Shown here: positions 23,745-31,080 of the stretch, piece by piece | Position numbering within the stretch: the first letter of the stretch is position 1 | How the letters are laid out: each line of letters begins with the position of its first letter | NCBI RefSeq assembly: GCF_003574485.1 | Contig: NZ_KZ984700.1 | Coordinates: forward strand, 1 to 51,435 | From: Facilibium subflavum | GTDB taxonomy: Bacteria > Pseudomonadota > Gammaproteobacteria > Francisellales > Francisellaceae | Reading direction: 5' to 3' | Length of the DNA: 51,435 bases | Position numbers and translations under genes: made by a program | Notes under the pieces: generated by a model | Databases searched by the model: none | What the model was told of the DNA's origin: nothing | What the model saw: the letters and a program-made list of their open reading frames with translations, nothing else

Positions 23745-24155
23745 TGATTCTCTCCAAATTTTCAGTCAATGATTAAATAATTTAACCAGCTACATACATT
23801 TATATCATTTGCACATCATTATGCATTAAGCATCAAGAAGCACAAGCAATAAATTTCCCCCACATACAATAGAGGAATTTATCGGCTGAAACAATGCATT
23901 TAACCTCGGTATTTTCATATTTTTTAACAGCATGGCTATTATACCGCAAATTTACTCAATACACATCTAGTACCGATATTTTCCAGAGCCAGACTAATAC
24001 CAAAATCAGAAAGCGTATAAGTATTACTTTGGCAATAAACACATGTAAACGCCATATCAATTTATCATATAACCTGGTTGTGTCAGGTTGCCTTTTTTAG
24101 CATAGTTGCACTATTATCATTAGATATAATCAGCCTTAATAAAGGATCTATATTT
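23745..24155. other. 411-base intergenic region with a hairpin
   Basis: The space between divergent pdxS and the glutamate-synthase-like gene holds no credible protein. The frame at 23894-24100 has no ribosome binding site and odd composition. A terminator-like hairpin at 24071-24098 points along the plus strand, although no plus-strand gene precedes it here, so a small RNA or a leader ending there is possible. A TATAAT at about 24126-24131 could be the -10 of the downstream gene. Confidence 0.4.
24071..24098 (+). terminator. Terminator-like hairpin in intergenic region
   Basis: AACCTG and CAGGTT pair around a seven-base loop and are followed by GCC and six T. It ends 57 bases before the next start codon. 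It could terminate a small RNA, or act as an attenuator for the downstream gene. Confidence 0.5.
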
Positions 24156-25748
24156 ATGTTCAAAATTTCCGAACGACGCAAATGGTATATTGGTTTTGGG
24201 ATTTGTTTTTTAATTATTCTAGCTTTGCTGTCACTTTTACACAGTTATATTACCATTAGCATTTTTCTAGGTATTATTTTACTGGTCGCAGTTTATGATC
24301 TATTGCAAAAAAAGCACACAATTTTACGCAATTTCCCTGTTTTAGGACATATGCGCTTTATTCTTGAGTTTTTCCGCCCTGAAATCCAGCAGTATTTTGT
24401 GGCAAGTAATGAAAGTGAACGCCCATTTGACCGCCAAACCAGGACACTTGTGTACCAACGTGCAAAAGGAATAAATGACACACTACCTTTTGGTACAGAG
24501 CGCAATATCACCTACCCTGGATATGAATGGGCACTTCACTCTTTATCACCTGCCCATCCAGATGACGTTGATCCACGCATTCAAGTTGGTAACAAGCAAT
24601 GCCGGCAGCCCTATCAATCTTCACGGCTTAATATATCGGCAATGAGCTATGGTGCACTATCTAAACACGCTATCATCGCACTAAACAAAGGTGCTAAGAT
24701 GGGAAACTTCTGCCATAATACTGGTGAAGGTGGATTGAGTGAGTATCATTTACAAGGCGGGGATTTAACCTTGCAAATCGGTACAGGGTATTTTGGTTTT
24801 CGCACGCCTGATGGTGATTTTGACCCAGACAAATTTGCCAGAAAAGCGAATCTTGAGGTTGTCAAAATGATTGAGATCAAACTTTCACAAGGCGCAAAAC
24901 CGGCACATGGTGGCGTTTTACCTAAAAGTAAGCTTACACCAGAAATCGCGCGAATCCGTGATGTTCCAATGGACAAAGATGTTTTATCCCCACCATCTCA
25001 TTCATCCTTTAGCACACCTGAAGGCTTATGTCATTTCATTGCACAAGTACGTGACTTATCTAATGGAAAACCGGTTGGTTTTAAGTTATGCCTTGGCAGA
25101 AGAACTGAGTTTCTCTCTATTTGCAAGGCAATGCTTAAAACTGGCATTTATCCAGATTTTATTACCATAGACGGCGCAGAAGGCGGTACAGGTGCCGCAC
25201 CTGAGGAATATGTCAACCACTTAGGCGTCCCATTAGAAGATGCCATTGCCTTTGTGCACAATGCACTTGTTGGTTGTAATATTCGAGAACATATTCGTTT
25301 GATTGCCAGCGGGAAAACTGCAACAGGATTTGATATGGTCAAGCGAATCTCATTAGGTGCCGATATCATAAATTCAGCACGAGCAATGATGCTATCTCTT
25401 GGCTGCATCCAATCAAAGCAGTGTGATAGAAACACCTGCCCAACAGGTGTTGCGACACAAAACCCAAGGCTTTATCGTGCCTTAGACGTCAATGATAAGG
25501 CAAAGCGCGTCTATAATTTCCATAAAGCAACGATGAAAAGTTTTTCAGAACTGGTTGGTGCCATTGGGTTAAAAGATCCAAGCGATTTATCTGCATCAAG
25601 GATCATGCGTCGTATTGATGAACAAACCGTAAAATCCCTGGACGAAGTTTACCAGTATATTAAGCCAGGCTGCTTGATTGATGGTGAAAACATCCCTGAG
25701 AAATATCTAAAATACTGGCACCAGGCAAGCGCGGAAAAATTTTCCTAA
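24156..25748 (+). CDS. FMN-binding glutamate-synthase-family membrane protein
   Basis: A 530-residue protein containing the FMN/iron-sulphur domain of glutamate synthase (GltB central region) without the glutaminase domain. Two N-terminal hydrophobic segments (about 10-55) suggest a membrane anchor. The core has ISAMSYGALSKHAI, HNTGEGGLSEYH, KPAHGGVLPKSKL, FITIDGAEGGTGAAPEEY and the cysteine cluster CIQSKQCDRNTCPTGVATQ that would hold a 3Fe-4S centre. I chose ATG 24156 because AAAGGA precedes it; the open frame extends 26 codons upstream without support. Stand-alone proteins of this type are common; their substrate is not settled, so glutamate synthesis is not assured. Confidence 0.85.
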   Translation: MFKISERRKWYIGFGICFLIILALLSLLHSYITISIFLGIILLVAVYDLLQKKHTILRNFPVLGHMRFILEFFRPEIQQYFVASNESERPFDRQTRTLVYQRAKGINDTLPFGTERNITYPGYEWALHSLSPAHPDDVDPRIQVGNKQCRQPYQSSRLNISAMSYGALSKHAIIALNKGAKMGNFCHNTGEGGLSEYHLQGGDLTLQIGTGYFGFRTPDGDFDPDKFARKANLEVVKMIEIKLSQGAKPAHGGVLPKSKLTPEIARIRDVPMDKDVLSPPSHSSFSTPEGLCHFIAQVRDLSNGKPVGFKLCLGRRTEFLSICKAMLKTGIYPDFITIDGAEGGTGAAPEEYVNHLGVPLEDAIAFVHNALVGCNIREHIRLIASGKTATGFDMVKRISLGADIINSARAMMLSLGCIQSKQCDRNTCPTGVATQNPRLYRALDVNDKAKRVYNFHKATMKSFSELVGAIGLKDPSDLSASRIMRRIDEQTVKSLDEVYQYIKPGCLIDGENIPEKYLKYWHQASAEKFS

Positions 25749-27536: not shown

Positions 27537-27741
27537 GCTTTATAAACGTTTCATTTTACCGTGGCAGCGGCACATGTTCCAAAAAGCCTATTTATGTTAA
27601 AATGATGCCAACACAAATGAAACATGCGCTAAATTATTTGACTTTCAAGCCTATCTCAACGAATATTTCACTTATTATAAAATTTGTGAAAATGCAGACA
27701 CTGTGAGTACGAATACTTTATGTAGCAAGGAAACATCTATA

Positions 27742-30700
27742 ATGACAACCACATACGACACACAGACAAAAGACCTACTTAGCTGCTATGAAAAAATGTA
27801 TAGCGCCAGAGCCATTGATGACCGAGAAGCTGAAATGGTAAACAGCGGGAAAGCAAACTTTTTAGCATCATCACGTGGCCATGAAGGTGCAATTATTTTT
27901 AACGCTTTCTTACACGAAGATGACTGGTTACACTGCCACTACCGTGATAAGCCTTTAATGCATGCCAGAGGCATGAAAGCAGAAATGTTTTTCTACAGCT
28001 CTCTTTGCAAAGCTGAAGGCATTTCAAATGGTCGCCAAATGGTTATTGGGGTTAGTGAAAAGGCTTTAAATATCGTTAGTATTATCACCCCTGTCGGCAA
28101 CCAGGCTTTACCTTCTTGTGGGATCGCGCAAAGTATTAAAGATGCCCCAAACAACCCAATTGTTTATTGCGGAATGGGAGATGGGACAACACAGCAAGGG
28201 GAAGTATTAGAAGCATTTGCCGAGGCAAAAAGACAGAATCTTCCTGTATTATTTGTTGTGCAAAATAATGAGCTTGCCATATCAACGCGAACACAAGGCA
28301 AAACCTTTTTCTCGATGCCCGATGGCAGCAAAAAGGATCAGTTTTATGATATCCCGATTACCTATTTGGATGGCACACGCCCATTAGAACAGTACCAGGC
28401 AATTAAATCTATTATCAAGGATATGCGCCAAAACCGCGCCCCACACATCATTGTTTTTGATGTTCCTCGACTAAATAGTCACTCTAATGCTGATGATCAA
28501 AGAATTTATCGCAGCAAAGAAGAACTGGAACAGTTAATAGCACAAGATCCACTTACTTTAAGTCGAAAGTACCTGCAAACACTTGGCATTACAGAAAATC
28601 AATTAAAGTCGATTGAAGCTGATTGCGATAAAATCATTGATGATGCTATGCATACAGCCTTACAAGGAAGCACGCCTGAGCCTTGCTTTGATGCAGAAAA
28701 ACCACTGCCTGCGCATTTACTCCCTGATCGTGAAGAGTACCGTGGCGACTTTTCCCAACAAACACGTTTAGGCATGGGAGCTGCCATGCGTGAAGTTTTT
28801 CGTCAACGATTACTTAATGATGAGCGGGTTTATTTATTAGGTGAAGATATTGAAGATGATAAAGGTGATGTATTTGGTGTGACCAAAGGCTTATCAACAC
28901 AATTTCCCGGACGCGTTGTTAATAGCCCCTTAGCAGAAGCAACCATTGTTGGGAAGTCTATTGGAATGGCACTAACCGGTAAACGCCCAGTTGCCTTTAT
29001 ACAGTTTGCTGATTTTATGCCACCGGCTTACAACCTGATATTTACCGAGCTTGCTACAATGCATTGGCGCTCAAACGGTGATTGGGATTGCCCTGTTATT
29101 ATCTTTGCAGCCTGTGGTGGCTATCGCCCTGGTCTGGGTCCATTTCATGCACAAACCAACGAAGGCACATTTGCACATATCCCAGGATTAGACGTTTACA
29201 TGCCATCTAATGCAGCAGATGCCGCAGGTATGTTAAATGCAGCCTTTGAATCTGATCGCCCCAGTGTATTTCTTTACCCTAAAAAGCTTTTGAACAATTC
29301 AAGCATTGATGATACAACATCAACCGATGTCAGCAAACAAATCATTCCTGTTGGTAAAGCAAGAATCGCAAAACCAGGAAGCGATATCACACTTGTTGGC
29401 TGGGGCAATACCGTAAGCCTTTGCCATGAAGTCGCTGACACACTGGAGACAGTTGGTGTTGATGCGGAGATTATTGATTTAAGAACCATTCGCCCTTATG
29501 ACTTAAAAAGCGTGTTGGCTTCAGCAGAAAAAACAGGACATTTAATCGTCACACATGAGGATAATCTAACCTGCGGTGTCGGTGGTGATGTTATTGCCTC
29601 AGTTGTTGAAAACGCGACAAGAAATATTAAAGTAAAACGTGTCACAAGAAGCGATACCTATGTACCGTGTAACTTTGATAACCAAATGCAAGTATTACCC
29701 TCTTTTGAGCGCATCTTAACCGCAGCTGCTGAACTGCTGGATTTATCCTTAAGCTGGGAAGTGCTTAAAAATAATGATGCTGGCAGTTATAATGTCGAAG
29801 TCATTGGTGCAAGCCCTTCTGATGAAAGCGTATTAATCACTGATTTATATGTGAAAATCGGAGATGAAATCAAGGTGGGTGATAAGCTGGTTGATCTAGA
29901 AGCCAGTAAGTCTGTTGGTGAAATACTGTCACCTAGTAATGGAACCGTTGAAGAGATTTACGTGGAAGAATCTGAGCGTGCAACAGTTGGCGATTTATTG
30001 CTGAAACTTCGCTTACCTCAAGGCAGTGTTAATCAGCAAAAAGAACAAAAACGCCCGATATTAAAGCGAAAAGTTCACAAAGAAGTAGTTCAAAAAAATA
30101 AACAACAAGGTGTTTATCCTGTGGGTATCAGCGCACCTTGCTTTAAAACAGGGGGCAAAAAAATTACCAATGATACACTTTTGGTGAACTTCCCTGAGCA
30201 TGCATCTGATGATATTATTAATCGCACTGGCATTGAAAGCCGCTTTTGGCTGGATAAGGGTGAAAGCATCGTTGATCTGGCTGCACAAGTTGCAAAAGAG
30301 TCACTTATCAATAGCCAATTAACACTTGCTGATATTGATATGCTGATTTGTGCAACCTGCACGCCTGATGAATTTCTATCGCCATCCATGGCATGTTTAG
30401 TATTAGAAAAACTTTATCACACTTTTGGCCAACACAATATTCCAGCTTATGACTTAAATGCGGCCTGTAGTGGCTACCTATTTGCATTACAAACGGCAAA
30501 GGATTATTTACAAATTCGCCCAAATAAGCGTGTATTAGTTATTACAGCAGAGTATATGAGCAAACGTGTCGATCAAAAAGACTTTGATACAGCCTTTTTG
30601 TTTGGTGATGCTGCCACAGCAACTATTGTCAATGGCGATGCACACCGCGATGATTCTCTGGCAATGATTGATGAGATTGCATTAACGAGTATTGCTGAGA

Positions 30701-31080
30701 ATGGTGAAACTTTGAATGTTCCTGCTGCTGAATGCCAATTTATTCAACTTGAAGGCAAAAAACTCTTCACTTTTGCAGTTAAGACAATGTCAATGATTAT
30801 GCATAAATGCTGCCAACAAAGCGGGATTGCATTAAATACGGTTGATCTTGTTATTCCACATCAAGCCAATCAACGCATCTCTAATGCCGTTGAAAAACGT
30901 TTAAAAATGCAACCAGGCACACTTTATAGTAATATTGCCCGTTATGGTAATACTTCCTCTTGCACCATTCCAATTGCATTGAGTGAAACATTAACAAAGC
31001 AAGGTAAAGATAAAAAAGTCGCCCTTTGTGCATTTGGCTCAGGATTTACGGCTGCAGCGGCTTTATTAACAACCAAGTAA
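27742..31080 (+). CDS. Four-domain fusion: 2-oxoacid dehydrogenase E1 alpha + E1 beta + lipoyl domain + KAS III
   Basis: A 1,112-residue single chain. Residues about 10-330 are an E1-alpha subunit with the thiamine diphosphate motif GDG...NN (146-176). Residues about 340-680 are E1-beta (LLGEDIEDDKGDVFGVTKGL, NSPLAEATIVG, GPFHAQTNEG). Residues about 690-760 are a lipoyl domain with acceptor Lys723 in LEASKS. After a basic Lys/Gln linker, residues about 790-1112 are a FabH-like condensing enzyme with Cys909, His1040 and Asn1070, spaced 131 and 30 apart as in E. coli FabH. No E2 acyltransferase or E3 domain is present. The parts suggest decarboxylation of a 2-oxoacid, acyl loading on the lipoyl arm and use as a condensation primer. 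The start is chosen for its AAGGAA site; a GTG 13 codons upstream is possible. No partner genes flank it. Confidence 0.88.
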   Translation: MTTTYDTQTKDLLSCYEKMYSARAIDDREAEMVNSGKANFLASSRGHEGAIIFNAFLHEDDWLHCHYRDKPLMHARGMKAEMFFYSSLCKAEGISNGRQMVIGVSEKALNIVSIITPVGNQALPSCGIAQSIKDAPNNPIVYCGMGDGTTQQGEVLEAFAEAKRQNLPVLFVVQNNELAISTRTQGKTFFSMPDGSKKDQFYDIPITYLDGTRPLEQYQAIKSIIKDMRQNRAPHIIVFDVPRLNSHSNADDQRIYRSKEELEQLIAQDPLTLSRKYLQTLGITENQLKSIEADCDKIIDDAMHTALQGSTPEPCFDAEKPLPAHLLPDREEYRGDFSQQTRLGMGAAMREVFRQRLLNDERVYLLGEDIEDDKGDVFGVTKGLSTQFPGRVVNSPLAEATIVGKSIGMALTGKRPVAFIQFADFMPPAYNLIFTELATMHWRSNGDWDCPVIIFAACGGYRPGLGPFHAQTNEGTFAHIPGLDVYMPSNAADAAGMLNAAFESDRPSVFLYPKKLLNNSSIDDTTSTDVSKQIIPVGKARIAKPGSDITLVGWGNTVSLCHEVADTLETVGVDAEIIDLRTIRPYDLKSVLASAEKTGHLIVTHEDNLTCGVGGDVIASVVENATRNIKVKRVTRSDTYVPCNFDNQMQVLPSFERILTAAAELLDLSLSWEVLKNNDAGSYNVEVIGASPSDESVLITDLYVKIGDEIKVGDKLVDLEASKSVGEILSPSNGTVEEIYVEESERATVGDLLLKLRLPQGSVNQQKEQKRPILKRKVHKEVVQKNKQQGVYPVGISAPCFKTGGKKITNDTLLVNFPEHASDDIINRTGIESRFWLDKGESIVDLAAQVAKESLINSQLTLADIDMLICATCTPDEFLSPSMACLVLEKLYHTFGQHNIPAYDLNAACSGYLFALQTAKDYLQIRPNKRVLVITAEYMSKRVDQKDFDTAFLFGDAATATIVNGDAHRDDSLAMIDEIALTSIAENGETLNVPAAECQFIQLEGKKLFTFAVKTMSMIMHKCCQQSGIALNTVDLVIPHQANQRISNAVEKRLKMQPGTLYSNIARYGNTSSCTIPIALSETLTKQGKDKKVALCAFGSGFTAAAALLTTK

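Follow-up and report, generated by a model that had tools for sequence, protein, structure and literature searches.

We describe a gene in a 51,435-nucleotide stretch of Facilibium subflavum DNA (RefSeq assembly GCF_003574485.1, contig NZ_KZ984700.1, positions 1 to 51,435 of the forward strand; hereafter the window) that joins in one chain the E1-alpha and E1-beta parts of a 2-oxoacid dehydrogenase, a lipoyl domain, and a domain of the 3-ketoacyl-acyl carrier protein synthase III (KAS III) type. An uninterrupted open frame runs on the + strand from a GTG at 27703 to a stop at 31080; because AAGGAA precedes the ATG at 27742 by about 10 nt, that ATG is the likelier start, in agreement with the coordinates given by an earlier sequence-only reading of this DNA. 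That reading had also described the four parts in this order without an E2 domain, which the single frame and the Pfam search bear out: neither 2-oxoacid_dh (E2, PF00198) nor E3_binding (peripheral subunit-binding, PF02817) was matched anywhere in the chain. The gene and its domains are as follows.

27727..27732, + strand: AAGGAA, likely ribosome-binding site for ATG 27742, as read from the sequence
27742..31080, + strand: whole gene, 1112-aa E1-alpha/E1-beta/lipoyl/KAS III fusion, ATG 27742 preferred over GTG 27703
27790..28683, + strand: E1-alpha domain, residues 17-314 (E1_dh, PF00676, 2e-45)
28774..29688, + strand: E1-beta domain, residues 345-649 (Transket_pyr, PF02779, 345-518, 5e-27; Transketolase_C, PF02780, 538-649, 9e-29)
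29794..30015, + strand: lipoyl domain, residues about 685-758 (Biotin_lipoyl, PF00364, 695-756, 4e-11; strands flank the K723 turn)
30016..30114, + strand: linker between lipoyl and KAS III domains, residues 759-791, partly flexible (predicted local distance difference test score, pLDDT, under 50 at 780-789)
30115..31077, + strand: KAS III domain, residues 792-1112 (Z 42 to FabH structures; ACP_syn_III, PF08545, and ACP_syn_III_C, PF08541, together 903-1110, 1e-20 and 2e-23)

Among NCBIfam models the top match is the KAS III subfamily NF006829 (262 bits, above its curated cut-off of 249), and the chain scores 220 bits against the fabH model TIGR00747, under its cut-off of 292; profile matches of the E1-beta part include pyruvate dehydrogenase models. 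In the AlphaFold2 model (mean pLDDT 89.5), K723 sits in the turn between strands 715-720 and 725-729, as in lipoyl domains, and residues 792-1111 superpose on the FabH of Aquifex and of E. coli with Z about 42 (against 2ebd, Z 42.2, 1.9 A over 306 residues), so that a KAS III (thiolase-type) fold is present. By Foldseek the modelled E1-beta superposes on Thermus, Geobacillus and human E1-beta, and among solved structures the closest to the E1-alpha part is the Thermus branched-chain E1. The linker preceding the KAS III domain is 35-65 residues long across the family of such fusions (median 41).

The main catalytic residues of the E1 and KAS III parts are retained, as is the lipoyl Lys. G146, G148, N176, H247, E399, H469, K723, C909, H1040 and N1070 are invariant in 69 aligned fusions, and KAS III positions were counted additionally over 79 fusion KAS III domains; only D147 of the thiamine motif varies, being Asp in 65 of the 69 and Glu in 4. 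The thiamine site at 146-176, Lys723, Cys909, His1040 and Asn1070, all picked out by the sequence-only reading, are thus present and conserved across the fusions.

28177..28269, + strand: thiamine diphosphate motif GDG...N, residues 146-176 (G146, G148, N176 in 69/69; D147 in 65/69)
28480..28482, + strand: H247, counterpart of Geobacillus H271-alpha (acyl transfer to lipoate; 69/69; role, PMC2663715)
28936..28938, + strand: E399, counterpart of E59-beta (thiamine activation; 69/69; role, PMC2663715)
29146..29148, + strand: H469, counterpart of H128-beta by alignment (reductive acylation of lipoate; 69/69; role, PMC2663715)
29908..29910, + strand: K723, predicted lipoylation site (69/69)
30466..30468, + strand: C909, KAS III nucleophile (79/79)
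30859..30861, + strand: H1040, KAS III catalytic His (79/79)
30949..30951, + strand: N1070, KAS III catalytic Asn (78/79, the remaining row being gapped there)

A role in the reductive acylation of lipoate has been proposed for H128-beta and H271-alpha of the Geobacillus E1 (PMC2663715). Because the E1, lipoyl and KAS III residues are all invariant, the chemistry that loads the arm and the chemistry that condenses appear to be selected together in one chain. Lipoylation of K723 is predicted from the domain and the invariant Lys, and LipA is encoded in the window's genome.

The most telling difference from FabH lies in the coenzyme A (CoA) site. In FabH the adenine of CoA is stacked between Trp32 and Arg151 (PMC4606726). 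We aligned the 79 fusion KAS III domains with E. coli FabH (identical to PDB 1hn9 bar one residue) and with 30 FabH sequences taken from genomes that carry the fusion or are closely related to those that do, bearing in mind that the fusion copies are related and their residue counts not independent. Trp32 is present in 29 of the 30 FabH and Arg151 in 25, and neither occurs in any fusion; Asp stands at the former position in 64/79. FabH shows strong conservation at 79 columns, of which only seven are lost throughout the fusions; W32 and R151 are two of the seven.

30211..30213, + strand: D824, at the FabH Trp32 position (CoA adenine stacking); W in 29/30 FabH and in none of 79 fusions
30583..30585, + strand: F948, at the FabH Arg151 position (CoA adenine stacking); R in 25/30 FabH and in none of 79 fusions

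Cys112, His244 and Arg249 of FabH are kept in all 79 fusions and Asn274 in all but one gapped row; Arg249 is a residue of the side facing the acyl carrier protein (ACP). The gate residue, Phe87 in FabH, is Thr or Ser in 78/79 fusions. With W32 and R151 lost and Arg249 kept, we read free acyl-CoA as no longer the donor and ACP docking as retained, and a strict dependence of the KAS III part on acyl-CoA, judged from these sequences, is unlikely.

The gene content of the window's genome (2.87 Mb in 378 contigs, 97% complete; statements on it come from genome searches) accords with this. A protein search of the assembly found no second E1-alpha/beta: E1_dh matches are confined to the fusion and one other protein, of 960 aa, read as SucA. 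The E2 domain occurs in exactly two proteins, read as AceF and SucB, and two E2s are likewise found in G005, a relative in genus g6 that lacks the fusion; the E2-domain search thus revealed no spare E2 cognate to the fusion, and the separate E2 that the sequence-only reading had considered as a docking partner was looked for beyond AceF and SucB and did not appear. With these as the only E2s and no other E1-alpha/beta, the window's genome has, to the extent that its 97% complete assembly shows, no Bkd complex to supply branched acyl-CoA. It does encode a separate, normal FabH, and a standard FabH above cut-off was found in 29 of the 30 fusion hosts searched.

In a tree of concatenated E1-alpha/beta (a quick tree with a midpoint root only), fusion E1s are sister to three Streptomyces E1s (Shimodaira-Hasegawa-like approximate likelihood ratio test, SH-aLRT, 100) and stand apart from pyruvate and branched-chain dehydrogenases. 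Two of the three Streptomyces genes directly precede a megasynthase that starts with lipoyl, E2, ACP and ketosynthase (KS) domains; the third is on an unannotated record.

L162:11935-18165 and L163:7926-14152: Streptomyces E1-alpha/beta gene before a lipoyl-E2-ACP-KS megasynthase

These loci apparently represent a 2-oxoacid dehydrogenase recruited as a loading module for polyketide synthesis. In S. xanthii the cluster further contains a hydroxymethylglutaryl (HMG)-CoA-synthase-like cassette, a discrete acyltransferase and flavin-dependent oxidoreductases, and by our own identification resembles the pristinamycin II cluster; the starter of pristinamycin II is an isobutyryl unit (PMC6963833). 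The kinship of the E1s together with this likeness suggests lipoyl-fed loading and, weakly, branched 2-oxoacids.

The fusion is not confined to one lineage. A scan of species genomes yielded 80 loci, nearly all full length (1,083-1,198 aa), in hosts scattered across at least seven phyla: Fastidiosibacteraceae, Neisseriales/Burkholderiales, Spirochaetota, Planctomycetota, Verrucomicrobiota, Kiritimatiellota, Sumerlaeota and the cyanobacterium Xenococcus. A match was present in 39 of 148 sampled spirochaete-class genomes and in 7 of 148 sampled planctomycete-class genomes. Over the full length, copies from the window's family are 58-78% identical to the window's fusion and those from other phyla 43-49%; by this gene the nearest hosts are Fangia hongkongensis (L042; 74% in the KAS part) and Cysteiniphilum (76-78% overall). 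In the window's family every genome of genera g1-g5 carries the fusion and none of genus g6 does. In both the E1 tree and the KAS III tree the fusions form one group (support 100 in each), and in the latter a split with support 100 sets them apart from the FabH that their hosts encode; in both trees Neisseriales copies lie among those of the window's family and an Accumulibacter copy among spirochaete copies. The trees are most simply read as showing that the fusion arose once, was inherited whole and was later transferred. The window and Fangia have in common BrkB-like and WrbA-like genes on the upstream side and topA on the downstream side; Cysteiniphilum shares topA as well. Across phyla, no conserved operon partner was found beside the fusion loci; since the neighbours vary by lineage, the protein probably works with housekeeping partners.

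We also considered a frameshift, an assembly artefact or chance as the origin of the chain and rejected them, because the same single frame recurs in about 80 genomes and several copies lie on large single contigs; the domain-architecture comparison thus gives no sign of the gene being two frames elsewhere, an eventuality that the sequence-only reading had raised.

Taken together, these observations lead us to favor, with reasonable though far from full confidence, the view that the fusion is a self-contained, CoA-independent ketosynthase that makes its own primer. Under this model a 2-oxoacid would be decarboxylated on the thiamine diphosphate of the E1 halves, which would pass the acyl group by reductive acylation to the lipoyl arm on K723; the acylated arm would swing to the KAS III domain, where thioester exchange would transfer the group to C909, dispensing with an E2 domain and with free CoA; and C909, H1040 and N1070 would condense it with malonyl-ACP to 3-ketoacyl-ACP, which housekeeping fatty acid synthesis would extend while the dihydrolipoyl dehydrogenase of the cell re-oxidized the reduced arm. 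Of these steps, we infer lipoylation, direct acyl transfer, condensation and re-oxidation. The substrate is the least certain part: branched 2-oxoacids, giving iso and anteiso primers, are our first choice, a call that we regard as about evenly balanced, the E1 pocket residues not being decisive. The proposal of the sequence-only reading that an acyl-lipoyl thioester is handed to Cys909 without CoA thus stands as the best reading, given the loss of W32 and R151 in every fusion, the lack, in the window's genome, of another E1-alpha/beta or of any E2 but AceF and SucB, and the sister relationship to assembly-line E1s; the 2-oxoacid may be pyruvate or a branched one, as that reading had put it.

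Several observations weigh against this model. R36, a pantetheine contact in FabH, is kept in 72/79 fusions, so that a donor in the form of a pantetheine thioester could still be accepted; in about 30 of the 79 the residue aligned with FabH T28, four residues before W32, is a Trp, which could provide base stacking of a different kind. Outside the window's family, many hosts encode further E1/E2 sets, so that a CoA route is available there, and G010, within the family, has one further E1; the argument from the lack of another E1 therefore applies only to the window's genome and, among its relatives, to most. The acyl donor of the Streptomyces systems is itself inferred, and the rooting and speed of the E1 tree count here too. 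A survey of the open-access literature on Fangia, Cysteiniphilum and Fastidiosibacter found no fatty-acid profile of a host. The mechanism as a whole is proposed from sequence comparison and structure prediction.

Alternatively, one could envision that the fusion serves only to channel, keeping the steps together while the transfer of the acyl group from lipoate to CoA falls to an E2 outside the chain, AceF or another, and the KAS III domain accepts acyl-CoA as FabH does. The FabH-like fold and triad, the retained R36 and the further E2s in many hosts of other phyla are compatible with such an arrangement, but the loss of both adenine-stacking residues throughout, the absence of an E2-binding domain from the chain, and a window's genome that offers only AceF and SucB make it improbable. 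Some KAS III-like enzymes act as acyltransferases, and the domain may likewise move the acyl group from lipoate to ACP or another thiol without decarboxylating malonyl-ACP, replacing the ACP-loading E2 acyltransferase of the related Streptomyces and quinocarcin-type systems (PMC6335953). However, the His and Asn required for decarboxylative condensation are conserved throughout and the domain scores above the curated cut-off of a KAS III subfamily model, so we consider this, too, rather doubtful.

The remaining alternatives concern what is fed to the E1. With pyruvate as substrate and the same mechanism, the product would be an acetyl primer and the fusion a CoA-sparing back-up for straight-chain initiation; this overlaps with the model that we favor and differs in substrate. 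The pyruvate dehydrogenase models among the E1-beta matches would fit, whereas the standard FabH already present in nearly all hosts searched, the gate residue opened to Thr or Ser, and the closeness of E1-alpha to the Thermus branched-chain E1 speak against it, and we hold pyruvate to be possible but the poorer choice. A ketose phosphate donor, as reported for the glycolic-acid loaders QncN/QncL, would yield a glycolyl primer for a hydroxylated special lipid or metabolite; those loaders, too, combine thiamine, transketolase-type and lipoyl components, and they charge an ACP (PMC6335953). Yet both His residues of 2-oxoacid dehydrogenases are invariant in the fusions, and the closest E1s found lie, in the one cluster read, within a pathway that looks isobutyryl-primed, in an E1 tree that did not include QncN; we thus regard such a donor as very improbable.

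Each part of the fusion has a known counterpart. Like FabH, its KAS III domain has the FabH fold, the Cys-His-Asn triad and Arg249, at about 27-35% identity; unlike FabH, it lacks the W32/R151 clamp, is joined to its presumed acyl donor, forms a separate group (support 100) and scores under the TIGR00747 cut-off. With pyruvate and branched-chain dehydrogenases it shares the E1-alpha and E1-beta folds and catalytic residues and a lipoyl domain with its Lys, but it is one chain, has no E2 acyltransferase or peripheral binding domain, and belongs to its own E1 group. The route through Bkd and FabH follows the same logic, from 2-oxoacid to first ACP-bound chain, although there a separate four-gene complex releases free acyl-CoA (PMC10026030), whereas the fusion is one chain and probably needs no CoA. 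The Streptomyces L162 and L163 systems hold the closest E1 relatives and a lipoyl arm that apparently feeds an assembly line; that arm, however, is on a megasynthase with an E2-like domain and ACP, and the ketosynthase that follows is a modular KS instead of a KAS III. Lipoyl-fed ACP loading is already known in antibiotic synthesis (PMC6335953): the QncN/QncL/QncM and SclQ1-4 glycolic-acid loaders combine a thiamine enzyme, a lipoyl arm and ACP loading, but have an acyltransferase domain, which the fusion chain lacks, no KAS III, and a ketose phosphate as proposed donor (PMC6335953).

We found no published description of the fusion in open-access full text, NCBIfam, Pfam or PDB (subscription journals lay outside the search), in keeping with the statement of the sequence-only reading that no characterized enzyme has such an order. 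The parts are all of known kinds; their order, with KAS III as the direct acceptor, and their spread appear undescribed. Type II fatty acid synthesis normally starts from acyl-CoA made elsewhere. If our model is correct, a single chain decarboxylates, carries and condenses, and would provide a CoA-independent entry into fatty acid synthesis; it would be, to our knowledge, the first ketosynthase known to accept an acyl group from a lipoyl arm, and would account for branched lipids in bacteria that lack a Bkd complex. The fusions, which transfer has apparently carried among spirochaetes, planctomycetes, verrucomicrobia and proteobacteria (many of the hosts being uncultured), may constitute a widespread family that starts fatty acid synthesis from 2-oxoacids, with acyl-lipoyl as donor to a KAS III that has no CoA site, and may be the sole enzymatic source of branched primers in the window's family, a broader proposition that could as readily prove wrong as right. 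A one-gene engineering tool for branched fatty acids would also follow, E. coli, as far as we know, having no Bkd complex of its own.

Some fusion loci have neighbors that merit description. In G010, contig C24, a tandem second copy of 778 aa (L021:1501-3834) stops just past the lipoyl domain, without KAS III, beside the full fusion L015; it may be either a product of decay or an E1-lipoyl subunit that feeds its neighbor's KAS III in trans. At seven spirochaete loci (L055, L068, L081, L093, L098, L109, L114) a short-chain dehydrogenase gene, a candidate 3-ketoacyl reductase, follows on the same strand at 3-864 bp, and in many of the seven an aconitase-like gene diverges upstream. At eight Pirellulaceae/planctomycete loci a gene with two BMC (microcompartment shell) domains lies at most 25 bp after the fusion (L050:11310-11933, with equivalents in L058, L062, L063, L067, L072, L074 and L076), with no obvious microcompartment operon around it. 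In the window itself, 24078-25748 encodes a 556-aa protein in which the central glutamate synthase domain (PF01645) alone is recognized.

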